Assembly (NCBI RefSeq): GCF_019059575.1
Contig: NW_024882972.1
Coordinates: 62,001 to 126,000 of the forward strand
DNA: 64,000 bases
From: Amphibalanus amphitrite
Taxonomy: Eukaryota > Arthropoda > Thecostraca > Balanomorpha > Balanidae
Direction: 5' to 3'
The position numbers were made by a program, and so were the translations under genes. Below are positions 13,380 to 60,572 of the stretch, piece after piece. Within the stretch, counting starts at the first letter, position 1, and every line of letters starts with the position of its first letter. The notes beneath the pieces were generated by a model, which was given only the letters and a program-made list of their open reading frames with translations, searched no databases and was not told the origin of the DNA.

Positions 13380-13896
13380 TTAACCCACGACCCGCTGGGG
13401 TCCTGGATTTCCACGCCCTGCTGGGGGGGGGAGGGTGTTTGAGGCCCCCTCCAGCTTGACTCCTGGGTCACCTACCGATACGTGGTAACCGGCATTGAAA
13501 AGAACGTCCAAAATAAGGACGGAACACTCAGGTCATTTTTTAGGTCGGGTCAAATGTCAGATCACCAGAGGTCATCAACGGTAAAATGTTGCATATTTAA
13601 ACATTTTTCGAAACACTGGCAGTGAGGCACAGAACTCGGGAACCAATTGAGGCAGAGAACTCTACAGTGTCGTGGAAAAGCGCATTCGATGGTCCTTTTA
13701 ACCCTCTTTCTGGAGCGTGCCCTCAGAGTTGAACTCAGGTCAACGGTTTAGTCTTCAGAGGGCAAAACACATCTACAAAAAAGTTTTTCCTCAATAACTG
13801 TTGACTCAAGAGCGTCACGGCATTACTTTAGCCAGCAACGTGCTCCTCTCGTCGATACTCGTCGAATAAACCATAATTTGACCTTTAAAGATCATA

Positions 13897-15157
13897 TTAA
13901 CCCGAACCCCTAGGTTTTAGTATCGGACTGCGTCTGTAAATGGGTGTCATACCTGTGGGCGTTCAAATAAATACATACATACATACATACATACAACCCC
14001 ACTAGGGTCTGTGTATAACGCGCCCTACTGGGGGGGGGGGGGCTATTCATAGCCCCAGTCCTAACTCCAAAACTACTGGGCCGATCGTCAAAATTCAAAC
14101 AGCTTCTGATAGCCCCGGAAAACTGTCGAACGAAACCTTATTTCATTGACCTGGAGGTCATCGATGACGTCACAGGTCAGGCCAAAATGAAAATTATCGA
14201 TGCTTGTATTGTTCATTCACATTTTGGGCTCTGGCCGTCGTCCTTCATGTCAGGTCAGACTCATTTTTGGTTTGCACACCCGTGAACCGATGTTTTAGAT
14301 ACCTTGAGGGTACCAAACTTGTACTTTCATTTTCAGGTTAGGGTCAGGTCATCACATATCACGGAAATCTTATATCATGCATCGGTCACGTGACAAATGT
14401 TTTATGGTCCATTTAGGACATAGATTTCGAAGTCGATGTCGTTTATGTCATTCGAGGTCATTTTGAGTTGAAATTAGCTTAGGCCAGGCCACTTTCAGGT
14501 CAAAAAGATGAAATTTAAAAGTTAAAATTTTCAACAAAAATGTGTCTATCGGATGCAGTTTGAGCTTAGGAACACGATGGTGCTATTTATATTGGAGTAC
14601 AATATCGATTGCACACTGAAAAATGGATTTGAAAAATTTACAATTGTGAAATTTTTGCTATAATGCGTATAACTTCGCCATTTTTGAAGACATCTGGCTA
14701 CCTCTCGCTAGAGTAAATCATAAGCATGTGTTCTATCACATATATTTCGGTTTTTCGAAAAGACAAAACTTTTTGAAAAAGATAAAAATATGAATTTAGA
14801 ATTTGAATATCTAAGATTTTCAGAATATTCAAAATTTTGAAGATCCGAGATAGCAGTTTGATGGCGCAGTCTATTCTGAGTCGCTGCATGCAAATAAATT
14901 GGATCTAGCATAAAAACTGAGCTCTTGGGAGCGATTGCCGTGGTTCAATGTTTTGCGTCGAAATCGGCCGAACATGACGTCACTCTTACGTCATTTCTGG
15001 CCGACCTTTATATGAAGTTCATATTTTGACACAAGGTGTCAAATTGATGCCACCGAAGGTACTCCAAGTTTGGCGTCGATACGTTCAGCGATTTAGAAGT
15101 TATTGCAGAAAAACGGAAGGGAGCTATGAATAGGCCCCCCAGAGGGGGGGGGGTTAA
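13897..15157. mobile_element. piggyBac-type TTAA element, family B, nested in family A
   Basis: Bounded by TTAACCC (13897) and GGGTTAA (15157), and the family A sequence is continuous on either side. In reverse complement it matches 35771-36962 nearly end to end, including the CTATTCATAG loop and the block naming TGTCACGTGACC-type sites. Its doubled-core end is broken by the (CATA)n insert at about 13911-13996. Confidence 0.8.
13911..13996 (+). mobile_element. Short retroposon 3' tail with (ATAC)n end
   Basis: About 85 bp ending GGGCGTTCAAATAAATAC followed by about seven ATAC units. It splits the terminal core of the family B element. A non-coding stub with a simple-repeat tail is what a 5'-truncated LINE or SINE copy leaves. 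The source family is not identified. Confidence 0.5.
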
Positions 15158-15303
15158 TTTGAAAGCTTAAAATCAGGTCAAGGTCATGACCTGACCGGAA
15201 AAGGTCATGTTGCATATCAATTGATCCATTTGGCGAGCCAAAGACATCGAAGGCATTTTCATTGCTCTAGCATAGGTACTTAATTGCTTACCTCTATCAG
15301 AAG

Positions 15304-15661
15304 TTTTTTTTTAATTTTTATATAAATTTAGTCCGAATCTTTTGATGGGAAGGATTCACAAGGACAGAGCCACCGCTAAGCGAAGCTTGTTGCGATGACC
15401 CTGCCCTCTACCCTCCGATCGCGCAATTCCGATTCTATGGCAGAATTTAGAGTCCAAAGTTTAACGTGCGCACAAAGCCGCGCACGGCCGGTCCCTTCGC
15501 TGACTTCGCCTGGCTACGGCCTGCCACCAACCGCAACCATACCTGTCAGGAGGCCCATAAATGTCGAGCGCCTGTCGCGCTTCGAACCCGGACTGTCATA
15601 ACCGGGAACACGTGCTCTCACCACGCGGAGTCCAACGCTCTAACCAACTGAGCTACGGGAC
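15304..15661 (-). mobile_element. tRNA-derived SINE, copy 1 (minus strand)
   Basis: Read on the minus strand, the head is tRNA-like (CCCGTAGCTCAGTTGGTTAG as A box, GGGTTCGAAGC as B box), then about 230 bp of body, then an A-rich tail (T-run at 15304-15312). It is nearly identical to 25863-26213 over the whole length. The body happens to have a 68-codon open frame in both copies, which is not taken as a gene. It sits inside the family A element at 13380. Confidence 0.9.
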
Positions 15662-15999
15662 CGGCTTAGTTATTAGCGAATCACTGTTAGATACATCCGC
15701 GACCTGAGATGACCTCAGGGAGTGACAGGAACATTACGGGGGGGGGGGGGGGTCACGAGTGCCATTTTTCGGTTCAGCGTGTCATTGTTACTCGTAATTT
15801 GGAGTTTGAAAATGTTTAGAACGACGTTCGTCTAAAAGAGGCGCCCTTCAATTTTCTCACATTCACTTATAATGGAGAGGTCGCAAAATTGACCTAACCT
15901 TGGATCACCGATACCGAAATTCCGAGATATGCATTTTGTACATATTGTTGCTCTTATCAATTGCTGAAAGTTTCAAAGATGAGCTTTTCGCGAGAAAAA

Positions 16000-16390
16000 A
16001 AATCAGGACGCGGAGTAGGTCACAGGCCAGGTCAAGGTTGGGTCAAGGATAAAAAAGTAAAAATTGCTACATTACTGGCTTTGTAGCCCAGCTCGCGAAA
16101 AGAGGACTAAGATTCTCACCCAGAACGCGTTCTTAGGGTATCAAGACGAGATGTAATACAAAAATATCAAACAAAGGTCAGGTCATATCAAACACGAACT
16201 ATTGAATAGGATATGTGCGAAACACGTTTTATTGGTCACTTTGCTCATGGAAATTTCAGGAAAGACGTCACATTGATGCATTAAAAGCTAGAGTTTGACG
16301 TAGCTGGCATGAAGCGTTTATGTTTCAGTTGTTGTTGAAATCCGGAGGGAAGGGAGGTAATACCCTCATCCAGCGGGGCGCAGGTATACT
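16000..16390. mobile_element. Fragment of a piggyBac-type TTAA element (family C-like)
   Basis: Contains the blocks GCGTTCTTAGG..ATCAAGACGAG and CGAAACACGTTTTATTGGTCA, seen also at about 39520-39660. It ends in a decayed terminus AGGTAATACCCTC..CCAGCGGGGCGCAGG that resembles the doubled-core end without its TTAA. Confidence 0.55.
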
Positions 16391-16439
16391 TTTTACACCA
16401 AGCTAGTATTACGTTGCTTTTACCGGCATCGCGTTTCTC

Positions 16440-16860
16440 TCGCTGAGACGCGTTGACTGTTGACAACAGTTTAAGGTCACGGAAAAGGTCATGCTGCATA
16501 TCAGTCGATTTGCATCGTTGAGCTGAACGCATCAAAGGTGTTTTCATCGCTCTAGCAGTAGCTTGTCTCTAGCAAAAGTTATTGTAAAAGAAAACTGCTG
16601 GAGACCTTTCATAAATTGAGATGACCCCAGTGACATAAAGAGGGGTCATGTGTGCAGTTTTCTGATTCAGTGTGTAATGTTTACCTATATCCTTATGTTT
16701 GACTGTGTTTAGTATGACTTTTGTCCAAGAAAGAGCAGTTGAACTGTCTCCCATTGAGTTATAATGGATAGCTCGCAAATTGACCTGACCTTAGGTCACC
16801 AATATCAAAATTCCGAGATAGATAGATATTGTTGGTACTGATTCTTTCGTGCAATACCCC
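16440..16860. mobile_element. Second family A fragment
   Basis: Matches the inner part of 18356-19531 (AAAGGTCATGCTGCATATCAG..GACCTTAGGTCACCAATATC) but is more diverged than the copy just upstream. No ends remain. Confidence 0.6.
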
Positions 16861-17800
16861 GAATTCCAAACCTCTAGGATATAACCTGTAGGAATGACAG
16901 AATTACAAGAAGCATAGAGGTATGGTCGCTAACTTGATCTGGTTACCGGATCTCACCTGTCCTTGGGTTAAAAATTTCACACACTATACGAAATGTATGC
17001 AACATAAGCTATATTATATTGAGTTTCGCTTTACACGAAAAAAAAACTCGAGTGTGGCCAAAAGCGACCCCTCCCCCCTCTTCACCATGGCTTATTTCAA
17101 ATAAATTAGCGATCTCCTTTTAAAAAAAAAAAATACATCTAAGCAAACAGGTCACCTTGGGGGGATTTCGCATGCATTTTCCTTTCCAGCAGAAGAAATC
17201 TGGTGAGCCGGAGGAGCTCGTCGGATGTAGTGTATGCTATTGGTTGTCGGATTTGACCGATTGGCGGCACTCCCCAGGAATATCCAGCTATAACTGCCAG
17301 TGAGCAGTGTTTACCCTGTACTCTGTGCCGGACGCAGCTGTCCCACAATGGAAGACGCCCCACTCATTGTGCCACTTCCTGTCAGTGGATGGGTCCATGG
17401 GTTTACATACACGGAGACACACACACGCCATCTCAGCGAACCGGCTGAGGAAACCTGCCGCTCTCAGAGCCGCCATTAAGGACGGCACTTTTACTACCGT
17501 GAATGAAAGGTGTGTCTCCGCTCTCACAGAGCGGCGTCATTGACTGTTGACATTAGTCACCTCAGCGTGCCCTATCCGTCTCACAAAGACGCATATGCAT
17601 AATCACGGTCACATGTGTCTCGGAACAGGAAATGCGATGCTCATTTCGAGCTTGCTCTTTTTCCTCTTGCTTCATAGCCCCGAACGTAGGAAGCGGAAAC
17701 GCCAAATTATTCCACGACAATGGCTTTGGGTTGATCATAATGCATCGAGACAAGGGAACGCCGATCTTTTATGCAGCCTTAGCGAAGAAAGGCTCAAGTG
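16861..17800. other. Interval with no recognised gene
   Basis: Mixed-composition DNA. Short open frames only, no conserved domain, no clear repeat ends. Confidence 0.6.
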
Positions 17801-17980
17801 AATGGAAATCAGATGGAATACGAGTAACCGCTCGTAGTAACCGTTTGCTCATAACTTAAGTAAGCTAAAAACAAATTCATGTTTTTTTTTAGCAAATCAA
17901 AATCCATTTGTTCTGTATGGATTTGTTTTAAGCTTACTTTAATTATGAGCAAAAGGTTACTATTCCATCTGATTTCCATT
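17801..17980. repeat. Fold-back (inverted repeat) of about 180 bp
   Basis: The left arm begins AATGGAAATCAGATGGAATA (17801) and its reverse complement ends the right arm (17980). The arms continue through GTAACC.TTTGCTCATAA and TAAGCTTAAAACAAAT with small mismatches around a roughly 20-base loop at about 17880. It is too long and uneven for an ordinary microRNA precursor, so a hairpin MITE is more likely. Confidence 0.8.
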
Positions 17981-18355
17981 ATAATCATAATCATGCTAAA
18001 AAAACGTTTCACACCATTCAAGCTCAAGAGAAGGTCTATCATAGATGGGTGGGATACAAAATTGAGAAAAAAGTGCTTTCCCTGTCCCCTGAACCAATGC
18101 TCAGGTTAGTACCTAAAACCATTTTCAGAACATTATTTGAGTAACGACTTAAATGACAGATTATGATCATTGATCAAATATTATTCGTTAACGTAAACAT
18201 TTTAATTGCACATAAAAGTTGCAAGTACCTATAGTTACACAAAAAAACAATAATTGCGTTAAGCGCAGCAGTTTGTTGTTGTGGAAATCTTAAACGATCA
18301 TTTACGGAGCTTTTATGCCAACGTATCTTTTTCGCCGCACCATTATACTAATACC
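17981..18355. other. Interval with no recognised feature
   Basis: AT-rich sequence between the fold-back and the family A element. Nothing definite is seen. Confidence 0.6.
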
Positions 18356-19531
18356 TTAACCCGCGCCGGGCCGGTGCTCTGAGATTCCGCGCCGGGCCGG
18401 GGGGGGGGGGGGGTGTCTGAACACCCCCTCCCCCCGTCTAACTCGGCTCCTGGGCCACGTAGCGACACGCGGTAAGCGGCAATCGAAAGAACGTCTAAAA
18501 TAAGGACGAAAACACTTCGGTCATTTTTTGAGTCAGGTCAAAGGTCAGGTCACCAGAGGTCACCAAAGGTAAAATGTTGACTATTTCAACATTTTGGAAA
18601 CTGCCAACGGCTATCTCGGGAACCGATAGAGCTACAGCGCCGCGGAAAAGCGCATTCGATAGCCCTTTTACAGAGCTTTCTGAGTTATGTTCTCAAATTT
18701 GACCTCAGGTCAACGGTTTAGCCTCCAGAGGGCAAAAACTTCAAAAATAGCCGTTTTTACGAAAAGTGTTTTTTTGACAATAACTTTTGACTCAAAAGAG
18801 CCATGACATTACTTTTGCCAGCATCGTGTTCCTCTCGTCGAGACGCGTCGAATGAACTATAATTTGACCTTGAAAGGTCAGCTTGAAAATTTGACCTCAG
18901 GTCAAGGTCATGACCTGACCGGAAAAGGTCATGTTGCATATCAGTCGATCTGCAACGTCGAGCCAAACACATCTAAGGCGTTTTCAGCGCTCTAGCACGC
19001 CTCTATCAGAAGTTATTAGCGAAAAACTGATAGATTCTGTTCGTGACCTGAGATGACCTCGGGGACATAACACGGGGTCACAGTTGCCATTTTGCGGCTC
19101 AGTGTGTCAATTGTACCTATATCTCGATGTTTGAGAGTGTCTAGAATAGCGTTCGTGCAAAACAGACGCTTTTCAATTTTCTCCCATTGACTTATAATGG
19201 AGAGGCCGCAAAATTGACCTGACCTTAGGTCACCGATATCAAAATTCCGAGATATACATTTTGTAGATATAGTTGCTCTTATCAATCGCTGAAAGTTTCA
19301 AGGCAATCGATCAATCGGTGTAGCTATGACGAGCATTCCTATTTTTTCTGAGGTGAGGTCACTTGGCGTGACCTGGTGACCTGACCTAAGGCGACCTGGG
19401 TCTGAAATTTTCACAACATGTGCGGAAAAGATGCACGAACAGGTGTGCTAAAAACGGTTTGAGATATCTGCGAAAAACCGCAGGGGGGGGGTGTTCAAAC
19501 ACCCCCCCCCCCCCGGCCCCGCGCGGGTTAA
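18356..19531. mobile_element. piggyBac-type TTAA element, family A, complete ends
   Basis: Left TTAACCCGCGCCGGGCCGG carries the terminal core twice (outer copy, 15-bp spacer, inner copy), then a G-run, the loop GTGTCTGAACAC and a C-run. The right end has a single core, GCGCGGGTTAA, with the loop GTGTTCAAACAC. It is 1176 bp including both TTAA copies, with no reading frame of substance. The interior has AGGTCA/TGACCT half-sites throughout, including the palindrome AGGTCATGACCT (18905-18916). Copies: 45245-46444 (opposite orientation) and the broken ones at 13380 and 56302. Confidence 0.85.
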
Positions 19532-19963
19532 AATATGAGCTTCTTCGAATCCTCCCTGTGCACGAGGGGGTGCACAGGGGATCCCCTCGCCCCTATTCTC
19601 GCCCCTATTCTCGCCCCTATTCAATATGAGCTTCTTCGAATCCCCTCGCCCCTATTGGTGTTTTGCCAGCCGCCAGGCCAGCCTAAGGCGACGGGGGTCC
19701 GTTGGACCTCCCCCTTCCGTTTGGCCCCTAATCAAGCTAGAACTTCACGGGGAAAAAAGAGCGCGTTGTCCGTGACGAAAGGAGGCCGATGATACCCAAT
19801 TCTAAGGTCATAGGTTATTGGTTGACCTTCAAGGTCAGGTTAATGACTCAAAAGTCGGGAAAATCGGGACCTGTCAGAAATTCCTAGTGAGGTTGTTAAT
19901 GGTTTTGCGGGGTGATGATCACGAACTTCATGCTAGTTTTATCACAGATGATGTCTTCATGAA

Positions 19964-20918
19964 TTAACCCTCGCACGACCAGGCCATTTCTCATAACACG
20001 AACGACCAGGGGGGGGGGGGGTTGTTACGACCCCCCCCCCCCCTGGCGTTTCGAAACGGAAGGTCGTAGAGCTTAGCGGAAAAAACCAACAGATTGCTCT
20101 CAACGAGATCTCGCAATTGGTGGTATATTTTTTGGTCCTAGGTCAACATTTGACCTACTTTTGACCGGTCAAAGGTCAAATTTTCGGAAAATAGACTTTT
20201 TTCAACTTTCGGCGGCGATTGCGGCAAAACGGTGGGAGATATCGACTTGAAACCTTCACTATCGTGTTCCTTGATCAATTCTCTATCGTTTGGTATGTAT
20301 TTCGTTTCCCTAGCTCTAAAAATGGCGCGTTGGGAGCGCCGGAAGTCGGCAAGGTCACAGTCGGCGGCAGAAATTCGAAAAATCAAAATTTAAATTTTTG
20401 AAATCTGATTGTATTTTTGGATTTGGGAGGTCCATTTGCTCCCTATAGAAGCTAATATTGCTGCATATTCCCATTGAGGTGACAAGAATTAGCAAAATAG
20501 TGGTTCGGGCGCTTTTCAAAAATAGTACCGGACGCTGTTCCTCTTGTGACGTCATAGCTCCGTGACCTGACCTGACCCGGTCAAATTTCTTATACCATAT
20601 GATAGCCAATACTTGCCCCAACATGCATGGGAAGTTTCATCACGATCCATCAACCGATGTCCGTACCACCGGCAGGAAACCTCGGGCGTTGGCACTCAGT
20701 TTGTGAAAATCCGGCCGGAGGCTGTACCTCTTATGACGTCATAACTCCGTGACCTGACATGACCCGATCAATTTTTTTTCGGCAAAAGATGCGCAAAGGT
20801 TGCCCCAGAGGGCATTGAAAATTTCAGCCCGCTACGACAAGCCGTTTAGCGTGCACTTCGAAAAAACCTCAGGGGGGGTTGATACAACCCCCCCCCCCCC
20901 TAGGCGTTCTAGGGTTAA
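19964..20918. mobile_element. piggyBac-type TTAA element, D-related, nested in family D
   Basis: TTAACCCTCGCACGACCAGG with a doubled core on the left, and a single TAGGCGTTCTAGGGTTAA on the right. G-run/GTTGTTACGAC/C-run and G-run/TTGATACAA/C-run hairpins lie inside the ends. The split host element confirms TTAA as the duplicated target. It is 955 bp, non-coding, and rich in TGACCT. Confidence 0.85.
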
Positions 20919-21129: not shown

Positions 21130-21142
21130 AGGTCAATGACCT
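21130..21142. promoter_or_regulatory. Perfect IR1 palindrome AGGTCAATGACCT in family D copy 1
   Basis: Two AGGTCA half-sites inverted with a one-base gap. This is the idealised ecdysone-receptor (EcR/USP) palindromic element. Function here is not shown. Confidence 0.5.
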
Positions 21143-23256: not shown

Positions 23257-24253
23257 TTAACCCTATTCCTGGCGGGGGGGGGCCTCAGGAGCCCCCCCCC
23301 CCTGAGGTTTTTTGGTTATATCTCCCAAACGCGTTGAGCTAGGAAGCTCAAATTTTCTGACTTTTCCTAAAAGGCTTCTACGCAACATGTCTGAAAATTT
23401 TGAGTTGATCTGACCTCAGGTCAGGTCACCAGAGGCGGTTTGGTGACGCTACCTCAGAAAAGTTTGCAATCACGCCAGAGCTAGAGTTTTTGACCGATCA
23501 ATTTCTTCTCTTCAGGGTTTAGTTAGGGTACCAGTATGTGCAATTTGTATATCTCGGAATTTTGATATCGGTGACCTAAGGTCGGGTCAATTTCGCGACC
23601 TCCCCATTATAAGTCAATGGGGGAAAAATCAACTCCCTGTTTTTACCACTAAAACGGGTCGGAATGGCCCCATATACCATACATGACTTCATATACGATC
23701 AATCTTCACTACCTTGAGGTCTGTTTTGCTGTTGGGCAGCTGTGAGGTCATGTGACGTCATCAAAGGTCACAAAAGGTTTTTGGCCAATAACTCCGTACA
23801 GGAACAAGATACAGACGCGTGGATGGTCTCATTGTGTTCAGCTCGTCAATACGCATCGAATGATATACATGATGACCTCGAGGTCACGTGACCTGAGGTC
23901 AACCTTTGACCTTGACCTTTCGAGGTCAACATATATATCATTCGATGCGGATTGACGAGAGGATCACGATGATGCCCTTAGTTTGTTCCTATCTTGACTA
24001 ATTCGAAAGTTATTCGAGAAAAACTCTCTCCATATCTAGTGCCGCCATTTTGACTTTTTCGACCCCTGTGACGTCATCTTTGACCTGACCTGAAAATGAC
24101 CTTAGTAAAAATTGTAGATCTTGGCCGTGCGTATCCGATGCCGTTTACCGCTTGTCGCTATCTCGCTTCGTTCTCGAGATCTCAGGGGGGGCCGAATCGG
24201 CCCCCCCCCCGCCAGTTTCTTGTCCCGGCGGAGCCCGCCAGGAATAGGGTTAA
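23257..24253. mobile_element. piggyBac-type TTAA element, family E, complete ends
   Basis: Single-core end TTAACCCTATTCCTGGCGGG on the left. The doubled-core end on the right finishes CCAGGAATAGGGTTAA. The G/C hairpins have loops CCTCAGGAG and CCGAATCGG. The interior shares the block beginning ATATCTCGGAATTTTGATAT with family A (about 23548-23630) but otherwise differs. It carries dense AGGTCA sites, including AGGTCACGTGACCT near 23880. Confidence 0.85.
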
Positions 24254-29739: not shown

Positions 29740-30654
29740 TTAACCCTCGCATGTGTGCGGCGTTTGCCAGCTTTTAATGTGTAGGGGGAGGTCGGTTGGA
29801 CCCTTGCCGTTTGGCCCCTGATCGAGCTAGCAGCTAGAGCTTCGCAGAAAAAAAAAACGAGCGTGTTGCCCGTGACGAGAGGAAGCCGATGATATCCAAT
29901 TTTAAGGTCCTAGGTCATTGGTTGACCTTCCAGGTCAGGTCAATGACCCAAAGTCGGGAAAATCGGGACCTGTTAGAAAGTCGTAAAGTGTGGCTGCTAA
30001 GGGTTTTTTTCGGGGTGCTGATCACGAATATCGTGTTAGTTTTGATCACAGATGACGTCTTTAAGCATTTAGACCAGGTCGGGTCAGGTCAGGTCAGGTC
30101 AACCAGTCAACCAGCAGGTCAATCAACGTGACGGGTATTCGTAGTACGTGTCAAGCGCCTCTGACAGCTTCGTAACATGTTACGAAGTCACCAACACTAC
30201 TTCATAAATGTTCAAATGGTTGCTAAATTCGAATTCAGCTCCAAAAACTAGCCTAGAAACATGTAAAACTCGAAAAAGTGAACCGAGGTCACCCGAGGTC
30301 ACCAAAGGTCAATGACCTGACCTGGCCTTCAGGTGACCTTGACACCCACCCTAATGCATGGGAGCAACATCAAATCACATGTTTGAACGTTTAAAACCAC
30401 GAAAAGCTTGCAAACGCGCGGCTAATGGGAGCCGACATATGCGGAATCGCGATTCCGGCCAAACATGGTCCCGGAAAAGAGGTCACAGGTCAAAGGTCAT
30501 TTGGGTCAGGGTCATGAAATTTTCAGGGTAGGTGTTAAATTGATTAATGCGAGGGTACTGAAAGTTTCGTCGCGATCAGCCGCTTTTTATGCGAGTTATT
30601 CGCGAAAAGCCATGGGGGGTCCATCCGAATCCCCCCTACACATGCGAATGTTAA
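29740..30654. mobile_element. piggyBac-type TTAA element, family D, complete ends
   Basis: Doubled-core left end from TTAACCCTCGCATGTGTG. Single right end CACATGCGAATGTTAA. It is 915 bp. Here the G/C hairpins are weak or decayed. It has AGGTCAATGACCT at 30306-30318 and a run of direct AGGTC repeats near 30073-30110. It matches the broken copy 19659-21475. Confidence 0.85.
30306..30318. promoter_or_regulatory. Perfect IR1 palindrome AGGTCAATGACCT in family D copy 2
   Basis: Same palindrome at the same place in the element as 21130-21142, so it is a conserved part of the family. Confidence 0.5.
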
Positions 30655-31050: not shown

Positions 31051-31240
31051 TTAACCCGGCAGTTGCTGGGGTATTTCGCCACCCACCATTTGCTGGGGGG
31101 GGGGGGGCGTTAAACGCCCCCAGCCGATAACTCGAGAACCAATAGGCGCAGCGAAACGCACGAGGCGCAAACGAAAGAACGCGACGAGACGCTTCAGATG
31201 AGTACTTTAAAGTTGAATCCGAAGAAATGAAATTTAAAAA
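31051..31240. mobile_element. piggyBac-type TTAA element, doubled-core end only (fragment)
   Basis: TTAACCCGGCAGTTGCTGGG, spacer, second TTTGCTGGGG, G-run, loop CGTTAAACG, C-run. It matches the reverse complement of 8230-8428 and stops near 31240. Confidence 0.65.
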
Positions 31241-35770: not shown

Positions 35771-36962
35771 TTAACCCGCGCCCCACTGGGGGGGGGGGGC
35801 TATTTATAGCCCCCCTCCCGTTTTTCTGCAATAACTTCCAAACCGCTTGACGGATCGACGCCAAACTTTCAGTACCTTCGGCTGCATCAATTTGACACCT
35901 TGTGTCAAAAGTTGAACTTCGTAGCTACCATAGGTCGGCCGGAAATGACGTCAGAGTGACGTCATGTTCGTCCGATTTCGACGCAAAACATTGAACCACG
36001 GCAATCGCTCCCAAGAGCTCAGTTTTTAAGCTAGATCCAATTTCTTTGCATGAAAGAACTCAGAATTGACCGCACTATCAAACTGCTATCTCGGATTTTC
36101 AAAATTTTGAAAATTTCGAAAATTTTATATAATAATATTCAAAATTTATATTTTTATATTTTTTTCAAAAAGTTTTTGACTTTCGAAAAAAAAACCGGAA
36201 TATATGTGACAGAACGCATGATTATGACTAACTTTAGCAAGTTTTAGCTAAATATCTTCAAAAATGGCCAAGTTATACGCATTATTGCAAAAAATTCACA
36301 ATTATTAATTTTTCAAATCAATTTTTCAGTACGTATTTGGCATCGTACACCAGTATAAATGGCACCATCGTATTCCTGAGCTCAAACTGCATCCAACAGA
36401 CACCTTTTTTGTTGAAAAATTTCAACTTCAAAATTTGACCTTTTTTGACCTGAAAGTGACCTGACCTAAGCTAAATTCGACTCAAAATGACCTTGAATGA
36501 CATAGACGACATCAAATTCGAAATCTATGGCCTAAATGGACCATAAAACATGTGTCACGTGACCGACGCATGATATAATATTTTCGTGACCTGTGATGAC
36601 CTGACCCTGACCTGAAAATCAAAGTACAAGTTTGGTACCCTCAAGGTATTTAGAGCATCTGTTCACGAGTGTGGAAACCAAAAATGAGCCTGATCTGACT
36701 TGTAAGACGGCGGCCAGAGCCCAAAATGTGAACAAGCCAAAGTGCTAATAATTTTTACTTTGACCTGACCTGTGACGTCATCGGTGACCTCGAGGTCAAT
36801 GAAATTAGGTTTCGCTCGACAGTTTTTCCGGGGCTATCAGACGCCGTTTGAATTTTGACGATCGGCCCTGTAGTTTCGGAGTTAGGAGGGGGGGCTATGA
36901 ATAGCCCCCCCCCCCCCCCAGTAGGGCGTGTTATACACAGACCCCAGTGGGGCGCGGGTTAA
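35771..36962. mobile_element. piggyBac-type TTAA element, family B, complete ends
   Basis: Single-core left end TTAACCCGCGCCCCACTGGG, and a doubled-core right end finishing CCCCAGTGGGGCGCGGGTTAA-like. Loops are CTATTTATAG and CTATGAATAG between G and C runs. It is 1192 bp with no gene. The interior has an AT-rich self-complementary block (about 36090-36200) and many TGACCT sites. It is inserted into the hAT relic. Confidence 0.88.
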
Positions 36963-39251: not shown

Positions 39252-40424
39252 TTAACCCGCGCGGGGCTGGGGTCTCCAGCCGAACGCGCGGGGCTGGGGG
39301 GGGGGGGTAAATTTTACCCCCCCCTGTTATCTCCCGAACTAATGGTCCGATTTGGAAAATTCAAGCGCCAATCGAAAGCTCTCATCACGAACTACTAAAA
39401 ACATGTACTTAATTTAAAGTTTGAGGTCAAGGTCAAGGTCAGGTCAAGGGTACAAATTGCAAGTTGCCTTGCACCGTAGTTGCCGAAGAATGGAGTCATG
39501 GACTGAGACTGATCGCCCAAAACGTGTTCTTAGGCTACCAAGACAATATTCGTTGCATACAATATCATTCAGAGGTCAAGGTCAAGGTCAGGTCAGGTCA
39601 GGTCAGGTCACCAAAAAAACAAAATATAGAAAAGGGCATGTGCGACACATGTTTTATGGGTCATTTTACTCATAGAACTCAATAGGCACACTCAATAAGT
39701 GATATGGACCACCTCTGGATGAATTTCAGGTCGAGGTCAGGTCAAGGTCAGGTCAAGTGAGGTCAAATTTTGAAGTTGGTTGTTAAGGCCTAAAAAGGTG
39801 TCTATCTGATGCAGTTTTTCACGGCAAATCGAATGGTGCTATTTTTGTTTCCGTACGAGGTCTAGAACTTCCAAAAAAGTCATTTTTCAAAAATTTTGTG
39901 TGTCGTGACGTCATAAAATTTTGAATAACTCCCACATTTTTGAACCGATTCTTCTAAAATTTGGTATGTAGGTGCACATAGACCACTTCTCTGACATATA
40001 TTCCGGTTTTTTCGATACACTAAAAATTTTGGATTTTATAATGATTTTCCCAAAAAAATCAGTTTTTTGAAAAAATTTAGGCCAAAATCCAAAATTTTCA
40101 AAAAACCGAGATAGCCATTTGATAGACAAAGTAAAATTACGTATAACCTTTTTTGTTACGTCTTGATTCCTTTAAAAATGAAGATGTTAGCGGCGTTTGA
40201 ACTTTTGCCGTTTTTGAGGCGAAAATGGCGAACATGACGTCACTAAAACGTCAATTTCTCAAAAATTTTCCGACGGATTTCGCTCAAATTTTCAGGGAAC
40301 GTGTCAAATTAATGTAAGAAAAGGTACTGAAAGTTTGGCGGCGCTGCGCGCCGCCGTTTTTGAAATATCGCAAAAATTCGCGAGGGGGGGTAAAATTTAC
40401 CCCCCCCAGCCCCGCGCGGGTTAA
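39252..40424. mobile_element. piggyBac-type TTAA element, family C, complete ends
   Basis: Doubled core CGCGCGGGGCTGG on the left with spacer GGTCTCCAGCC. Single core at the right end, CCCCGCGCGGGTTAA. Loops are TAAATTTTA and TAAAATTTA. A direct run of AGGTC units lies at about 39572-39611. Its right TTAA (40421-40424) is also the left TTAA of the next element. Confidence 0.88.
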
Positions 40425-45244: not shown

Positions 45245-46444
45245 TTAACCCGCGCCCTGCTGGGGGGGGGGTGTTTGAACACCCCCCCTGTGGTTTTTCG
45301 CGAATATCTCAAAAACGGCGGCGCGGAGCGCCGCCGTTTTTGGTACACCTTATCATACATCAATTCTACACATGTTGTGAAAATTTCAGACCAAGGTCAT
45401 TCAAGGTCAGGTCACCAGGTCACTTGAAGTGACCTCACCTCATAAAAACTTTCAATGTCTGTCATAGCTACACCGAGTGACCGATCGCTTTGAAACTTTC
45501 AGCGATTGCTAAGAGCAATAGCATGTACAAAATGTATATCTCAGAATTTTGATATCGATGACCTAAGGTCAGGTCAATTTTGCGACCTCCCCATTATAAG
45601 TCAATGGGAGAAAATTGAAATGCGCCTCTTTTGGATGAAAGACATTATAAACACTCCCAAACACCGAATTACAAGTGGTTTAGACACACTGAACATAAAA
45701 ATGGTGTCCGTGACCCTTGTTTATGCCCTGAGGTCATCTTAGGTCACGAATGGTATCTAACAGTTTTTCGCAAATAACTTTTGATAGAGGTATGCTAGAG
45801 CGATGAAAACGCCTTAGATGTGTTCAGCTCGACGATACGGATCGACTGATATGCAACATGACCCTTTCCGGTCAGGTCATGACCTTGACCTGAGGTCAAA
45901 TTTTCAAGTTGACCTTTCAAGGTCAAGTCATAGTTCATTCGATGCGTCTTGACGAGAGGAACACGATGCCGGTAAAAGTAAGCTCGTACAAGGCTTGGGT
46001 CAAAAGTTATTGCAGAAAAACTGTTTTCGAAAAAATCGGCTATTTTTGCAGTTTTTGCCCCCTGCAGGCAAAACCGTTGACGTTAGGTCAAATCTGAGAG
46101 AATTACTCAGAAAGGGCGTTAAAAGAGCTATCGAATGCGCTTTTCCGCGGCGCTGTAGCTCTATTGGTTCCCGAGTTATGCGTTGGCTTCTTGGAAATTT
46201 TCGACATTCGACCTGGAAATCGGCGAAATTTTGCCTTCAATGACCTCTGGTGACCTGATCTTTGACCTGACCAAAAAATTGACCGAAGTGATTTCGTCAT
46301 TATTTTTGACGCTCTTTCGAACGCCGCCTTCCGCGTATCGCTACGTGGCCCAGGAGCCGAGTTACAAGGGGGGGGGGGTGTTCAAACACCCCCCCCCCCC
46401 AGCAGGGCGTGGAAATCCAGGACCCCCAGCAGGGCGCGGGTTAA
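45245..46444. mobile_element. piggyBac-type TTAA element, family A, complete ends (reverse orientation)
   Basis: Single core on the left (TTAACCCGCGCCCTGCTGGG), doubled on the right (CAGCAGGGCGTGG, 16-bp spacer, CAGCAGGGCGCGGGTTAA). Loops are GTGTTTGAACAC and GTGTTCAAACAC. In reverse complement it follows 18356-19531 throughout. AGGTCATGACCT lies at 45874-45885 and a GGCGGCGC hairpin at about 45315. Confidence 0.88.
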
Positions 46445-50995: not shown

Positions 50996-51114
<119 letters not shown>

Positions 51115-53400
51115 TAGGAAAAAAGAGAACATACAGAGACACACAGAAAGAGCAGTCACACAAAAGGGAGTCACTGAAATATGAAAATATTAGCAGGGTT
51201 TAAATGGAAGAGCGAAAGAAGAAATGTTTCATTGTGACCCGTATTAAAACATTCATATGCCGTTTGCCGGCGGATTTCTGACATTGCGGTTTGTTTTCGG
51301 TTTGCCACCGACACTGGAGGAGAGGGGGACCGGGTTCGCGCGTGCTTCCACTCGGTAATCGTGTTCCTTCAGGCCTCGTCGCTTACAGGGCACCGTTCGC
51401 GGAAAGCGCTCAGCTGGTATATATCAGCATACCAACAGCGAGGAGGGTGGTAGCTGGGGGATAATCACCTCGGCTCAGCTCCGCGCAGGCACCAAAGGCG
51501 ACTGCAGCGCCGTGCACAACACGGCCCACCATTGCATGAGTGACTGGTTCGTGATGGCAATTATTGCATAAGGCTTCTGTTAAAGATCAGCGGCCGTCCG
51601 GACTCATCAGATAAGGAGCACAAACGGCCCGGCCGACATTCCGCAGTTGCATGGCCGCTTTGACACTTCGGAATGAGTGCTGATGGTTTCGTTTACCTCA
51701 CATTGAACACAGATTGGGTGTGTGATTATACGGGCAGCAACAGCCTGCGCTTTATTCCGACGATTGATTCAAATACGCTACTACATAGAGCACATTATAT
51801 TTGCATGGGGTTGACCCGGAAAACCTCAGAAGCATGGGTACCGTTTATTGTATCTCATAGGTATAAAGAAATACTTCCCGACAAATATTGAATTAAATCG
51901 AATTATATTAAATTTGAATTTCCCAGCTTCTTGTACCGACCTCAATTTTCTCTTCAGGTCTGGAAAACCAAAACAATAGATCGATTACCAGCATGGCTGG
52001 CGTTTCTACACCGAATGCTATAGAGGCACTGCAGCTCTTATAATCTCTCCTAAGTCGAATACATTACAAATTAAATCAATCTGCCCTAGCTTGCGAGTGC
52101 TGCTTCCCGCGTCCTAAACTGCGCACGCGGGGTCCACCTTTTAGCCATTTCTATCCTAGTTACCTGAGGGAATCCAAATAGCTTGGAAAGTAAAATAAGC
52201 GGTGCCACATCTTTGAAAATAAAATATAACAAAAAAAAAACATTTTGATGCAGGAAATTAACTATCTCAGCGTCAATTCCAAAATTTATCTGCAAAACCA
52301 ATGTTGACTTAATGGAACCGAAGCAAGACAGAAATATACAGAAAATATGACGTGTGGGAAAAGTACCGATATCAATGGCAAAATAACAAATATTTGTTGA
52401 AGATCAATACCCTCAAACAGCCAATCAGCCAGCACTGCAGCCACAGGGTGGTATGTACCACCCATGTCACCGGCAGGGTCGGGTCAGACCCCCCCCCCCC
52501 CCCGAGACACCCGGGACGGGCGGCGACCGGCCTGAGCCGAAGCTGATCGGGCCACTCGGCCAATGGCTGTGCACGATCTGAGCCTGACCAATGGAACATG
52601 ATCGTGGCCGAGCCGCAATAATGGTAACAACGATATCTGAATGAATGATTCATTCACCATTCACCAACGGAAAATTTAAGCAGAAAAACCGAGGCTGAGA
52701 TGACCTTGGTCCCTAAACACCGCCGAAATTCGCAATCTCGCTTCTCCGAAGTAGGCACAAAATCGGCGCTACTTTTACACTCACATGTTTGCACGGTCGC
52801 GGTAAACATAAATCGGACCATCTTCTCGAGGGGCCCCGGCGGTACACGGGTGGAGGAGCTGCCGCCCGGTCGGCCGGCCGCTCGGCGGCTGCACACTGCA
52901 CAGTGCACGTGCTGCCGGTGCACAGTGTCCCGCCCGGCCGGCCGGTGATGGGGCCACTCGGCAGCCACCAGCCGCCCGGCACCCAGCGCCCTGGCGTGAC
53001 CGAGCTGCATGCTGCGGTTCCCCAGCCGGTTTAGCCGTGCTTTTTGCGTCGTTTCTTTGCTGATATAAGCTGCTTCGCCGAAACTCTGTTTGATGTGTCA
53101 ATTGACCGGTTGGAGCACGCCATTCAAACCTACATTGTCGAGGGTTCATGCGGTTGGACTCGTTCTGATAGGAAACACCTGCTTACAACTCCCGCATTTT
53201 CACTCGGGTATTATCTTGAATTGGATTTTTCCTTCATCAGCCAAAACAAATCAAGGGGCTTACCTAATTCATAATAACTTGAAGCATAAGCTATAGGTAA
53301 GCCTATTACGAGCAACTATTGGAAGTGTCAAAACTGTTCGACCATGTAGCGCCTTCGTCTCACTGCGCGGTAGATATTACTTTTTGGACGCCATTTAATT
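51115..53400. other. Interval with no recognised gene
   Basis: Mixed DNA with a CpG-rich patch at 52830-53020. No gene or clear element. Confidence 0.5.
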
Positions 53401-54672
53401 GCGTCCCAGAAAAGCTATTTCTGGCACCTAAAAGCTGACTCGCCCCAAAATTGGTCCTCAGCACCTATTTGGTGGATACCAGCACCAATCATGGAAAATG
53501 ACCTTAATTAGCTGTTTCTGGCACCTATTCATCGGTACGCCTTACTCTTTTTTTCTGAATCTGGCACCTAAATGCTGAGCGTAGCACCAATCTAGTAGGA
53601 AAATGAACTACTGGCTGGTAGAATCATGTTGTTCTGGTATAATGACCCCTGGAGTCTAGCCTAAAGGTTGCCAGTGCAGCTACACTCTAAGACAGCCCCG
53701 TAGTGATCTCAGCATTGTACATGACGTTTAAGTAAGCAAATAATATTGATTTGTTTGAAAAAACAATGTCATTTAAATATTTAAAAGTATTTATTTGTAA
53801 TGCTTAAAGGGAAACATTTTTGTGAGTAATTGTCTCGATTTTGACCATTAAAACGGGTATTGTATTTTTTGACGTCATCAAATAGCTCCAAAAAAGAAAT
53901 GTAATGTTTTCATTCCGTTCAAGGCCGCTGAAGAAACGCGGGATCTTGCGTGGGACATTGTCCGTTGTTTGCCGCGCAGAGTTGTGCCGTGGTTGTGCCT
54001 TTTTCATCCGTTTCTTACTTATGTGTGCATGAAGCTTTGATTTTGTTTTTGGTTATTGTGTGGCCGGTCAGTCAAACGCCCCTGTAGAAACCGGATGCTG
54101 CGTTTGATCGAGATGGAGTCAGACGATGATTGCAGAAAGCTAATAATATTGAAAAGAGGGCCGGTTGCGTGGCATGTCTGTTCAGAGTTGACATTTTGCT
54201 TTACTCCAGTTTATGACCTGAGAGCCTGGCTGGAAGTGACGGATCCAAACTCTTCACGTTAAAATGGCTGAGGGTGCAATAATCTCTACATAGCGGGCTG
54301 GTATAGGAGCGTCTTGCTATGCTGCACCATAGCTGGCTAGTGATTCTCTTTTGGCTAGAAATGGCATTATTCATTATCTCCACTGGCAAAAATGGCACTT
54401 GACATCACCGAATGCAACGTTCATGTTTGTTAGGATACATAAAATCAGGAAGATTACGCGAATTCGGTAGGCAAACGTGGAATAAAATAGGTGCTGGATG
54501 TTTTGGTTTTGGTGCTGAATCAGCAAACAGCAAATACGGAGTTCAACTAGACGATCTGGCAACTTTAGGCTGTGTGGAAGCAATTAGGTGCCAGATTCAG
54601 ATATTAGGGTCGAATAAGCATTTTGGGGCTGATCAGCAATTAGGTGCCAGAAACAGCTTTTTAGGGACCAGA
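53401..54672. mobile_element. Element or inverted pair with TTTCTGGCACCTAA ends
   Basis: The stretch at 53401-53465 (GTCCCAGAAAAGCT.TTTCTGGCACC..CGCCCCAAAAT) recurs in reverse complement at 54606-54672. GGCACCTA also recurs inside (about 53525, 53575, 54590). No TSD was found, so the exact ends are open. The frame 54412-54960 crosses the right arm and is not credible. Confidence 0.6.
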
Positions 54673-55339
54673 AACAAATATTCCCCTTACTTTTTCGACA
54701 AAGATAATACTAGTCTAAGGCTATGGTTATCAGTCTGCCGCCAAATTGGGTGGGAAAAGCAAACGCTAATGAGCCCAATCTATGGGGACGAGTCTCGCGC
54801 GTCCTGGCATTATGCTTCACGAAAGGCCGATGACATAGTTTTCGAGTTATTCTCAGTTCGTGAGAAAAAAGAATACCTTACCACGCAGAGAGACAAAAAC
54901 GTTCCAGAAGACACACTGTACAGTTTCTGGAACGCACTGTACAGCGTGTGTACAGCGTGAAAAGACTGAACTTTATTGATCAGATCGAAACACAATAACT
55001 GACCTTTCTTCTTCTTATCGCCGACATGGCCAACTGGAGCAGCTGTGAGCTGTGAAATGACGCATGCAATGGACATTGGACACGCATCGCTAGATAAGCC
55101 AACCCTTACGGATAACTGTTGGCTCATGTTGTCTTCAGTTTTTTTCAAGAACCTCTCGAAACTGGCCGTATGCCTCTCTACGATGATAGTCTTCCGGATG
55201 AGGCTAAAAGTACTTTAAGTTTTCATTTTTCATCATTCGAGAAACTCAGCGAATATTTAGAGCGGTTAGTGAATAGTTCAGAGTCCGAGACAATCCCAAG
55301 CAGTTTCAGTTTTAGGTTATGTTTAGTGTATGGAAGTGA

Positions 55340-56303
55340 GTAAAAAGACATCGCCAGTGCTTGTTCATGGTGATGTCACTGCGACCGCCAACAACGAGCG
55401 TGCTGAGCTGTTAAACCGCACGTTTGCGACCAGGTTCACGTCCTTTACATATGCAGGTACTTTACCAGTCGCTTTGCAGCTCGATTAGCCTATTCTGTCA
55501 GAGCTCGGTGTCTCAGATGGCGCTGTCTTGCGCATTCTAGAAGGGGTGAAAACGAATAAAGCGTGCGAACAAGATGGCATAAGTGCTCAGTTATGTCATT
55601 GTCCGTCATTGTACCGCTGAACTTATCACTCCTCTCACTGTGTTGTACAGACAGGCACTCGCTCAAGGGATATTTCCCATTAGATGGAAAGAGACAAATA
55701 AAGTGTCTGTCCATAAAAAATGGATCAACCAAAGAGGCGGCGAACTACCGCTCAGTCTCATTGTTACCCGTTTTTGGGGAAGATCTTGGAAAGAGTTATC
55801 TGTTAGAATCTTATAACGCACGTTCGCACCGCTCTGTCTGAGAAACGGCATAGTTTTATTCCACATCGCTCGTGGGTAACGAGCCTGTCCAGTGTGTCCA
55901 CTCTAGTAGGCGCAGGATGGCAGACGATCTCGAATGGCACTCAGCTTGACTGTATTTACATATACCGATTTCTCCGCCGCCTTTCAAAAGGTTGATCATC
56001 GGCTTTTACTGCACAACAGAGTTCGTACGGCATTTATGGACCAGCACTTGCACTGATTGCATCTCGCTTGCGTGACCGTCAGCAGCGTGTAGTGGTGAAC
56101 CGCCCAGCGTCGTCCTGGATGCCAGTGACCTCGGGCACTCCTATTGTCTGTTGTCAGTCTGAGTCAGTCTGAGTCAGTCTGAAGTCAGTTGAGTCAGTCA
56201 GCTGAGGGCAGTCTGGTGTCTCCGCTTCTCTTTATCTTATTTATCGAGGACTTAACTTCGCACGTCGAGTCAGAATATCTCATGTACTTACGCTGACGAC
56301 GTT
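55340..56303 (+). pseudogene. LINE reverse transcriptase fragment (Jockey/CR1-type), broken
   Basis: Blocks of a non-LTR reverse transcriptase appear in order: NNERAELLNRTFA (about 55392), VKTNKACEQDGISAQLC, EAANYRSVSLLPVF (55734-55775), YTDFSAAFQKVDH (55961-55999), LRDRQQRVVVN, SLVSPLLFILFIEDL (about 56211-56255) and CTYADDV (56283-56303). The blocks lie in different frames, so it is a pseudogene. A small (GTCAGTCTGA)n expansion at 56152-56200 splits the G-S-L motif. The sequence is cut immediately after YADD by a TTAA element inserted at 56302. No endonuclease domain was recognised upstream. Confidence 0.85.
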
Positions 56304-56735
56304 AACCCGCGCCGGGCCGGTGCTCCGCGACCTCCGCGCCGGGCCGGGGGGGGGGGGGGGTGGGTGTCTGAACAGTGAACACCCCCATGTTTAAAGGTAG
56401 TGTGCCACCTTCCAATGATTTCCCATTTTATTTTTCCTGAGATAAGAAGCTTCTGTTTTTACCTAATATCGCAAAAAAAAATGGGGCTGGAATAGTGCTT
56501 TTTTCGCCTAAAAGTTTATCGTTTTTTTATATGTATAACAACTGTAGTGGGCTGACTTGCAAACAGGCGTCGGCAACGATCGTGAATGCGGCGCACATGT
56601 GACAATAATCATAGGTCATTATAGAGTTACGACGTACGGGAATGAGTTATCAGCTGTCTAATCGTAGACAACACAATGTCGAACTTAAACTGTAAGCCTG
56701 TATTGGTATTGTTTCTTTAATTTGGCTGTCGAACA

Positions 56736-57909
56736 TTAACCCTCGCCCCGTTGGGGGGGGGGGCATTTTGGCCCCCCCCTGTGGTTTTTCCTGAATAGCA
56801 ACAAAACGGCGGCGCGCAGCGCCGCCAAATTTTCAGTACCTTCCCGGGCATCAATTTGACACCTTCACAACAAATTTCAAGTCTTAGGTCACCTTAGGTC
56901 AGGAGTTATTGAGGTTAAACTGAGGTCATGTTCGAGCAAAAATGAGCAAAAACATGCAATCTTGAAACGCTCACCAAATCTACAGTTATCAAGCAATTTC
57001 AAAGTTCTTTATATGGTCTAGTAGACAAAAAGCGGCGCTACAAAACAGCTATCTCGGATTTTCGAAATTTTGGGTTTTTGACCCAAAAAAATTCCAAAAA
57101 ATTGATTTTTAGAAAAACAAAAAAAAAATCCAAAATTTTTCCGAATTTCGAAAAAACCGGAATAAACGTCATAGTCCCTGCGCTCTTCTATATACATACC
57201 AAATTTCAGATCGATATCTCGTTTTTTGGCCAAGTTATAGCGAAAAAAAAACTGTTCAAAAATGATGACTCAAATTTTTGAACTCAATTTTTAGCGATTC
57301 TAGACCTCGTAAGGCAAAACAAAGACCACCATTGAACTCCCCGTGACGAGCTGAATCGATTCGATACCCATTTTATGCAAAAATATCAACTTTGAAATTT
57401 GACCTAATTTGACCTGACCTTGAACTGACCTTGACCAAAACGTGACCCAAGCTGGCCCCAAAGGCTGCCTGACCCACATAATCGCATTTGTCATGTAAAA
57501 TGTACCATAAAACATGCATCACACGACACTTTCATATTGTGACCCCCCAGTGACCTGACCTCTGTGACCTGACCTGGTATCAGTGACCTCAACTAGCAAA
57601 ATATGTGTTTGAAGAACATTTCCCCATCGATGATTTTCAATGAAATGCATTTTACTCGATTTTACAACGCATTTCTTGAAATGCCTGTAAACGGTGAAAA
57701 TTGGACCTTTGACCTGACCTGTGACGTCATCGGTTTGACCTAGGTCAGTAAAATGGGGTCACAAAGTAGTTCTCTGATAGGGCTATCCAACACCGTTTGC
57801 CGCTTGTCGCTAGGTTGCGTGGTTCTCGAGATCTTAGGGGGGGGGCAAAATGCCCCCCCCCCCCCAACGGGGCGCGTTGCTCGGCAGAGCCCAACGGGGC
57901 GCGGGTTAA
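56736..57909. mobile_element. piggyBac-type TTAA element, family C/B-related, complete ends
   Basis: Single core on the left (TTAACCCTCGCCCCGTTGGG), doubled on the right (CAACGGGGCGCGTTG, spacer GCTCGGCAGAGC that can itself pair, CAACGGGGCGCGGGTTAA). Loops are CATTTTGG and CAAAATG. The AT-rich fold-back block at 57050-57160 parallels the ones near 36100 and 40060. It is 1174 bp. Confidence 0.88.
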
Positions 57910-58184
57910 TCTATGGTTTGAAATATGATTTTATGTAAAATAATTGATATGAAACAGCCGTCTCTTAATTTATGACCCCATCTCACCACACGAAAGTGGC
58001 AGAAATGACAATGATCAGCTGACGCATTTTTCTTGGCCGAAGTCAGAGGCCAGAGCGCGCGGCCCGACGCACCACCACCGCACCACAAAGTATGAGCAGA
58101 AGCCACCTAACAGGCGTGTTCGAAACCGCAGGAGATGATAATGAACGGGTTTATCGAGACTTGATTGGATGAGTCTATCGGTAA

Positions 58185-58726
58185 CAGGGTTGTGCTTGAC
58201 TCATGAGTCGAGTCAGAAATTTGACTCAACTCTGACTCAAATGAGTCAGATTTGAGTCGAGTCGGATAAAATGTTGAGCTGTTGAGTTGAGTCAGAGTTG
58301 AGTCGGACAAAAATATTAAGGCGTTGAGTTGAGTAAGAGTTGAGTCAGTAAAATAACTTTTGACATTGAGTTGAGTCAAACATTTAGGAACATGAGTCAG
58401 CTGACTCAACTTTCTAGAAACAAGCTTTTCATTCCCCCCCCCCGCCCCCGCCTTAACAACTTCGCCCTGGCTCTGCTGCCGGATTTTTTCCACCCCCGCC
58501 CCCGCTCAGCAACTTTTTTATCTGAGTCAATTTTGAGTCAACTCACTTGACTCAACAAAAAATTTGAGTCAAGTTTGAGTCGACTCATATTTTCATTGAG
58601 CCGCTTGAGTCATGAGTCGAGTCAAGGGAAAAATCAGCTCCTTGTTTGAGTCAGAGTTGAGTCAGGGCTTTCTGAAGTTGAATGATGAGTCGAGTCGGCA
58701 ATTTTTTTTAGTCGAGCACAACCCTG
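58185..58726. mobile_element. hAT-type MITE with GAGTCA internal repeats, 8-bp TSD ATCGGTAA
   Basis: ATCGGTAA at 58177-58184 and 58727-58734. The ends are CAGGGTTGTGCTTGACT and, in complement, CAGGGTTGTGCTCGACT. The interior is degenerate GAGTCA/GAGTTGAGTC repeat on both sides of a C-rich centre (58433-58505). It is the same architectural type as 7281-7564. Confidence 0.9.
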
Positions 58727-59662
58727 ATCGGTAATAGCGATTTTAGTGTGTGCATTTATTGTTCATAGTGGTGTGAAATGTGATTGGGATACGACCGACA
58801 ACCCGTCGGGGCGAATTTCGCACTGGGGTACTCAAAATTTGAAGAATTTAAGACGTATCCATGAGTTTTGAAGGCATGGATAAGTTCTAAAAATCCGGTT
58901 CTCCTTATCCGGGTCATTAACTCCACATGATCCAGGAAAGCTGGCACACTACCTTTAACTCGGCTCCTGAGCCACGTAGCGACACGCGGTAAGCGGCATT
59001 CGAAAGAACGTCCAAAATAAGAACGAAAACACTTCAGTCATTTTTTGGGTCAGGTCAAAGGTCAGGTCGTCAGAAGGTCATGAAAGGTAAAATGTAGTCC
59101 ATTTCAACAATTTTGGGAACTGCCAACGGCTAACTCGGGAACCAATAGAGCTACAGCGCCGCGGAAAAGCGCATTCGCTAGCCATTTTACAGACCTATCT
59201 GATTAATGCTCTCAGATTTGACCTGAAGTGAATGGCATGGGTGTCGATTTGTATACCTTTGGGGGTGCTGCAGCACCCCCAATGCTCAAATGAGCACCCC
59301 CAATGGTTTTCCGGGCACCCCCGAATGTTCCAGTTAGCACCCCCAATGATTTTGTCCCTCAATAACTCCCACTAACTCTGCTTGAAGAAAATAATTGGTT
59401 CTGCAGTCTTTCACTACTAAAACTAAAACAATTACACAACTTGCAATGCATGAAATAAAGATGTAAAGAAAAGAAAAGTTAGTTTTAAGAAGAAGGGCGA
59501 AAAAAACGGTAAAGTGCAAAGACACTGGTGTGGGTCCGTCGTACACGGATGTCGGACCCTTAGAGCTGCTTGCGCGTACCCTTTACAAGCCGGCAGGGGG
59601 CTCCAGAGACCGGCGACGGGCCCTCAGAGGCCGATAAAGGGCCATCAAAGGCCGGTGGTACC

Positions 59663-60572
59663 TTAACCCTCGCCCGCACATGCCATTTTCCCATCCTAGA
59701 ACGCACATGGGGGGGGGGTGGTTGCCACCCCCCCGCGCCATTTCGTTCCTGTTGGAGATAGAGCTTAGCAGTAAAGACCAAAAAGATTCTTTGGGAAGAG
59801 ACGAATCCAATGATACCCAGTTTTACCTTCTCAGGTCAGTCATTGACCTTCCAGGTCAGGTCAAACTAAAAAATGTTGCTGTTTTGGGTCACCGTTGGAT
59901 ATCAAGTGCGCTGCTTATCAAATACCGATGACGATGCTGTTTTCTGGTGCCAAGCCAGCTAGAACCTTTTTGTCACACTATCCGACCAGAATTTTGCTGC
60001 TGAGGTCATTTCAGGTCAAGTTAGGTCAAGGTCAATTATATGTGTTTGTATGTCTGTGTGTGTCTGTGCGTATACTGATGTGTGCACCGATTGTTTTTGG
60101 GTCCATATCACATGAAATCATGATCTGAGAAGCTTTTACCAAAAATGCAGTCAAAAAACTTCACAAAAAGTCAATTCAGCTTGCCTAAAACGCAATTATC
60201 TTAGATGACCTAGGTTGACCTTGACCCTGACCTTGACCCCTGTACATCGTCGAACAACATGTTCCATGATAGGTGGGAGGTAAGACTGGCAAAAAAGGCC
60301 GAAATCAGGGTGTCAAAAGCTCACAAGGCCCATGGCAAACGCAAGATGTTGAGAATTGGCCATTTGGGTCATGACATGACCTGAAAAACAAGGTCATATC
60401 TCCGAAACCAAAAATCACAGAAACTGGAAATTTTCAGTGGACATCAAGAAAGGATAGACGAGCAGCTATACGAAAAATCAGCCTTCTAGCTCTAAAAATG
60501 TTGAGTGCAGAGCAGAAAGACTGCCTGGGGGGGTGGCAACCACCCCCCCCCCCATGTGCGGGCGAGGGTTAA
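59663..60572. mobile_element. piggyBac-type TTAA element, D-related, complete ends
   Basis: Doubled core on the left (CGCACATGCC, spacer, CGCACATGGGG) and single at the right (CATGTGCGGGCGAGGGTTAA). Loops are TGGTTGCCA and TGGCAACCA. It is 910 bp. It interrupts the GGCCCTCAGAGGCC array of the hAT relic, with TTAA on each side. Confidence 0.88.

Follow-up and report, generated by a model that had tools for sequence, protein, structure and literature searches.

The window analysed here comprises 64,000 nucleotides of the barnacle Amphibalanus amphitrite (NCBI RefSeq assembly GCF_019059575.1, contig NW_024882972.1, positions 62,001 to 126,000 of the forward strand), and is populated by elements of the TTAA-targeting piggyBac type in which a short terminal core is present twice at one end and once at the other. 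Every TTAACCC or GGGTTAA site in the window was inspected inward from its tip. Nine elements have both ends, and all nine have TTAA on either side, which is the target duplication of the piggyBac superfamily. On the plus strand, with the doubled end on the left, are 18356..19531 (core GCGCCGGGCCGG, single end right), 19964..20918 (core family A, with doubled core TCGCACGACCAGG and single core TAGAACGCCTAGG), 29740..30654 (core TCGCATGTGT, a relative of the autonomous element L031 described below), 39252..40424 (core GCGCGGGGCTGG) and 59663..60572 (core TCGCCCGCACATG). On the minus strand, with the doubled end on the right, are 23257..24253 (core TATTCCTGGCGGG), 35771..36962 (core GCGCCCCACTGG), 45245..46444 (core GCGCCCTGCTGG) and 56736..57909 (core YCGCCCCGTTGG). 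The termini read CCC/GGG, except for one decayed end reading CAT, namely the right end of 29740..30654, which is mutated to TTAACAT in place of TTAACCC. None of the window copies carries a transposase, the best tblastn match being 13 residues long with an E value of 5.2.

A sequence-only reading of this DNA had listed ten two-ended elements. Nine are as it described them, TTAA flanks included; the tenth, placed at 13897, was misplaced. The TTAACCC at that position has neither doubled core nor G-run and occurs there by chance, 98 bases away from a decayed end; the true doubled end begins near 13995, and its opposite single end is at 15157. This decayed element (13995..15157, plus strand; the left end is doubled and has lost its TTAA, the right end is single) is 86% identical to 35771..36962. 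A truncated element at 13380..13897 (plus strand) has a doubled end on the left only, and its right limit is arbitrary. Isolated doubled ends lie at 8380..8428 (minus strand, core GGCAGTTGCTGG, outside the region covered by the earlier reading), and at 31051..31120 (core GGCAGTTGCTGG) and 56302..56375 (core GCGCCGGGCCGG), both on the plus strand and with no partner end found. The doubled ends at 8428, 13380, 31051 and 56302 were absent from the earlier list of ten.

Read inward, a single end consists of TTAA, CCC and a core of about 10 bases, followed immediately by a G-run and a G..C palindrome. A doubled end consists of TTAA, CCC, the core, a spacer, the core again, and then the G-run and palindrome. 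The palindrome is present at 18 of 21 window ends and is missing from three decayed ends. The core-to-core distance in doubled ends is mostly 26–28 bp, and is 24–29 bp across a wider sample of 42 rows of the genome doubled-end listing, chosen by eye to skip repeats. We scanned the window together with loci L009–L036 (297,997 bases, both strands; L001–L008 excluded), and assigned end class by the offset from CCC of the first run of six or more G. There are 95 TTAACCC sites: 31 have their first G-run at offset 13–16, 32 have it at 39–45, none fall between, and 32 have no G-run. The reversed-sequence control contained 24 tips and a single G-run, at offset 50. Two of the 31 short-offset tips, belonging to L034 and L035, two loci of nearly identical sequence, have a first core that itself finishes in six G and are in fact doubled ends; the G-run rule scored both as single while the core-repeat rule scores both as doubled, and neither was paired. 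Over 63 ends, the median position of the palindrome centre is 27.5 for single ends and 56.5 for doubled ends.

When ends were paired without crossing and blind to end class, all 21 pairs joined one doubled to one single end, with 21 of the 63 ends left unpaired. This bears out the earlier claim that the core is doubled at exactly one end, there being no both-single or both-doubled copy among the 21 pairs. A first, greedy pairing had given 18 doubled/single and two doubled/doubled pairs; the latter were mispairings, caused by two elements sharing one TTAA (L023 2515-2518) and by a nested stack in L025. In 13 of the 18 doubled/single pairs from that pairing, the four letters behind the G-run match between both ends. 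Back-to-back neighbours with one common TTAA occur at L023:2515-2518 and L025:6428-6431. A further observation concerns the inner side of the palindrome: in seven of nine window single ends (45292-45312, for example) it is followed by GTTTTT with a CGC-like continuation, so that the polarity of the ends agrees with the interior, and this motif is possibly another recognition site. A small genomic group, exemplified by G000:C13:1791612, reads TCGCCGACCCTCGCCGACACAGG, with the core partly doubled at a far shorter distance.

The genome (807.55 Mb in 2,644 contigs) was searched for transposases. PF13843, the piggyBac DDE domain, gave 116 matches, and 20 neighbourhoods were inspected; searching with the L023 protein yielded 70, many of which are fragments, and 14 loci of its lineage were inspected in all. 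The piggyBac transposase that the sequence-only reading predicted, with the same cores at its own ends, was found at L021, L023–L026, L031 and L018. Two other groups that use TTAA, Kolobok and Sola3, have transposases and tips of their own. At L021, L023, L024 and L025 the gene is flanked by the ends of window element 19964, and at L026 one such end is intact and the other has an altered TTAA. L023 and element 19964 match at about 90% over roughly 320 bases on the doubled side and 390 on the single side; 19964..20918 is an internal-deletion derivative of this autonomous group (L021/L023/L024/L025/L026). L031 and L018 represent two more core types with a lineage transposase between matching ends, and L018 has another element nested inside. 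L031 (L031:276-4353) is inserted within an element of another family, whose interior is that of 45245/18356. It is flanked on each side by ATAA rather than TTAA, and 45245 shows the readable empty site for this insertion. In all seven copies with both ends located, the doubled end lies 3′ of the transposase, which supports the earlier reading that the doubling marks left/right polarity.

The L023 transposase is 646 residues long without a stop. It matches the Trichoplusia ni transposase 6x67 over 89–638 (E 2e-78), including the C-terminal cysteine-rich domain (CRD), all of whose Cys/His residues are aligned, and it has Asp at positions 268, 346 and 447 of 6x67, which we take to be the catalytic residues. 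Its match to piggyBat stops at piggyBat residue 538. The L031 protein is 58% and 49% identical to that of L023 in two pieces and the L018 protein 56%; by region, L018 has 66% identity in the catalytic part and 55% in the CRD, and L031 has 69% (larger piece) and 39%, respectively. The palindrome of L031 is also further from that of L023 than that of L018 is, although a comparison of just three families allows no conclusion.

The piggyBac of T. ni is a moth transposon used in genetic engineering. The sequence-only reading was aware of no family described with precisely this architecture, and here it was mistaken: T. ni piggyBac shares the layout, down to the 27-bp period. Its ends, as given in the parts of PMC3078864 drawn on here and scored by the same measure as ours, contain in the 63-bp end (labelled 3′) a repeat that matches at 10 of 10 positions at a distance of 27; in the 35-bp end (labelled 5′) the best match is at most 5 of 10. 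The palindromes of these ends start at 44 and 16, with centres at 52.5 and 24.5, respectively. The likeness between T. ni piggyBac (LE35/RE63) and the barnacle elements extends to the TTAA target, the CCC tip, the core that is single at the 5′ end and paired at a 27-bp distance at the 3′ end, the palindrome after the inner core, and the catalytic Asp and CRD Cys/His residues of the transposase. The features of the T. ni type are thus found here: a palindromic internal repeat at both ends, a core duplicated about 27 bp apart at the 3′ end only, and a C-terminal CRD. The architecture noticed earlier is therefore that of piggyBac itself. Unlike T. ni piggyBac, the barnacle elements have G/C homopolymer palindrome arms and many core types, are mostly non-autonomous, and contain AGGTCA clusters. 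What is new here is their scale and the turnover of their cores, of which there are about 20 types in a sample.

This turnover was analysed in the 42 sampled rows, which contain 20 core types when cores with more than 2 of 10 differences are counted as separate. A second core agrees with the first core of the same end at 7.1 of 9 positions, compared to 4.6 for other families (0/20,000 permutations); because the rows were chosen by eye and related families are not independent, this permutation overstates the certainty. Among 17 cores in the window and L009–L036, the corresponding values are 8.5 of 10 for the own repeat and 5.5 between cores (0/10,000 permutations). Each core type alters in concert at its copies, and the geometry of the ends stays fixed.

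Genome-wide, we counted 22,011 doubled ends, 18,144 single ends and 170 of intermediate spacing on the forward strand, compared to 55, 61 and 59 for control patterns read backwards. The reverse-strand counts (53,145, 51,123 and 402; controls 27, 20 and 13) count the same end repeatedly and were not used. Doubling the forward counts gives an estimate of about 40,000 elements, which at 1.1 kb each would make up some 5–6% of the genome. In one family, a 28-mer from the doubled end occurs at 2,945 + 2,921 places with up to three mismatches, and nowhere when read backwards. For the family of 45245-46444, 40 copies were scored from 3,152 candidates, the window's own included, and all 40 run from base 1–2 to base 1199–1200; the sequences point to a recent spread, because the other 39 are 98–99% identical.

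We consider it very probable that the elements are non-autonomous members of a piggyBac lineage, resembling miniature inverted-repeat transposable elements (MITEs), and moved in trans by the transposases of related autonomous elements. By analogy with T. ni piggyBac, each end would consist of tip, core and palindrome, and the CRD dimer sits on the palindrome in that system (PMC7351741). An inner-dimer step may also be involved; for piggyBat, a 2026 preprint (PMC13405395) describes a tetramer that is asymmetric and whose inner dimer is inactive. A single protein would read all copies of each core and palindrome, and cores and palindromes would for that reason shift together. In the sections of Chen et al. 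2020 (PMC7351741) used here, the combination of insertion and duplication in T. ni piggyBac is called “a puzzling arrangement” and tested, and the native transposase requires unlike ends in cells.

Several observations weigh against this explanation. The hyperactive T. ni transposase is less strict, like ends working to some degree (PMC7351741). In one sampled core type, TCACCAGG, the doubling is not clear (5 of 8), and the single-end core of family A, TAGAACGCCTAGG, is unlike its doubled-end core. Among the 14 lineage loci, L033 shows a single end on the 5′ side only, L034/L035 show a doubled end on the 3′ side only, and no ends were located at L029, L030, L032 and L036; both ends were located at the other seven of the 14, which leaves most core types with no located autonomous partner.

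The doubling could instead be an inherited relic with no role in transposition, namely an ancestral tandem duplication whose copies stay similar through gene conversion or through copying from end to end. The families share interior homology, and the layout is thus partly inherited; homogenisation could likewise make cores alter in concert. We nevertheless regard this as improbable: the 27-bp period and the one-end rule survive a large turnover of core letters and are common to T. ni piggyBac, intermediate spacings are outnumbered about 100-fold across the genome, and in T. ni about half of the activity is lost if the sequence of the second repeat is randomised or if 5 bp are inserted (PMC7351741). 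A second alternative attributes the movement of the elements to other piggyBac lineages in the same genome (with ends TTAACCCATTAGTGCC and similar), whose transposases are numerous and also use TTAA. None of the 10 such elements examined, from about six families, has a doubled core or end-proximal G-run, however, and the window cores flank the L023/L031/L018 lineage instead, making this very unlikely. That the elements are of foldback type, or assembly artefacts built on G/C hairpins, might be suggested by the palindromes at 18 of 21 window ends, but hardly merits consideration given the TTAA flanks of nine window elements, the filled/empty site pair, the dispersed copies with 98–99% identity and the matching transposase genes.

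The elements bear on the duplicated motif at one end of piggyBac, which PMC7351741 calls puzzling and enigmatic. The retention of a period of about 27 bp and of the one-end rule by some 20 natural core types is evolutionary evidence that the second core is a real binding site for the same protein, and the barnacle elements supply matched pairs of transposase and ends for testing it. They belong to a known superfamily, and as a natural experiment on how transposon ends are recognised they are unusually rich.

The interiors of the elements raise a separate question. AGGTCA is a nuclear-receptor half-site, and about 165 bp is a nucleosome repeat length. In the 11,373 bases of eleven window elements there are 150 occurrences of AGGTCA/TGACCT, compared to a mean of 5.4 and a maximum of 13 in 200 mononucleotide shuffles, and the reversed word occurs once. 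Gene-side sequence (window 1-7400 and 8500-12600) has five half-sites in 11.5 kb and shows no enrichment. In ten elements, words differing by one mismatch occur 1–29 times, compared to 146 for AGGTCA/TGACCT. The half-sites form clusters, for example at 18535..19387, with centres 189, 348, 540, 693, 865 and 1015 bases from the doubled end of 18356-19531; similar clusters lie inside L021, L023 and L031. Cluster centres in the ten elements lie 150–200 bases apart in 32 of 42 cases, and the periodogram peaks at 165–170 (87, compared to a random 95% level of 52; 0/300 random), although the elements share common ancestry and such pooled half-site tests are not independent. Period tests on seven single elements gave 3 to 157 of 5,000. 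An internal tandem repeat was rejected as the source of the period, self-identity at lags of 140–195 being flat at 0.25–0.28.

In eight pairwise alignments between families, 40–90% of half-sites are retained compared to 4–46% of other hexamers, a comparison that may favour repeated words. The non-coding parts of L023, L031 and L018 hold 13, 25 and 28 half-sites, and the coding parts 0, 2 and 0; six piggyBac elements of other lineages have 0–4 each. Such repeats are reportedly carried by Alu elements (PMC1785376). We suggest, tentatively and as one possibility among others, that the interiors are arrays of nuclear-receptor-type half-sites at nucleosome-repeat spacing, kept through the turnover of their surroundings and of the end cores, and that a host AGGTCA-binding factor phases nucleosomes on them or times their mobility; tens of thousands of copies would have spread these arrays genome-wide. 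The arrays may be more novel than the end architecture. Why a non-coding transposon should hold host-type binding words at nucleosome spacing is a question distinct from that of its ends, and the half-site array merits separate study.

Among the literature matches listed, we found neither these elements nor AGGTCA arrays in barnacle transposons. As far as the relevant portions of PMC11707139 and PMC13405395 describe it, piggyBat of Myotis lucifugus is alike in belonging to the piggyBac superfamily and in having asymmetric ends, but differs in the absence of the right-end palindrome and in a different CRD fold. CMITE of Acropora corals, in the account of PMC2872659 used here, consists of piggyBac-type MITEs with TTAA, CCC tips and differing tips over a common interior, but is about 100 bp long with inverted repeats of 13–14 bp, and that account mentions no core doubled at one end. 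A survey of small animal genomes (PMC10813416) excluded MITEs and gives inverted repeats of 13–18 bp; we read its A. amphitrite row as five PiggyBac types, three of them intact, of 506–645 amino acids. These types may include the autonomous elements described here.

Two other features of the window were noted. At 15580-15670, on the minus strand, there is by eye a tRNA-like or tRNA-derived repeat, although ARAGORN reports none. An open frame at 11531-12250 appears to resemble the terminal exon of a ligand in the TGF-beta family.

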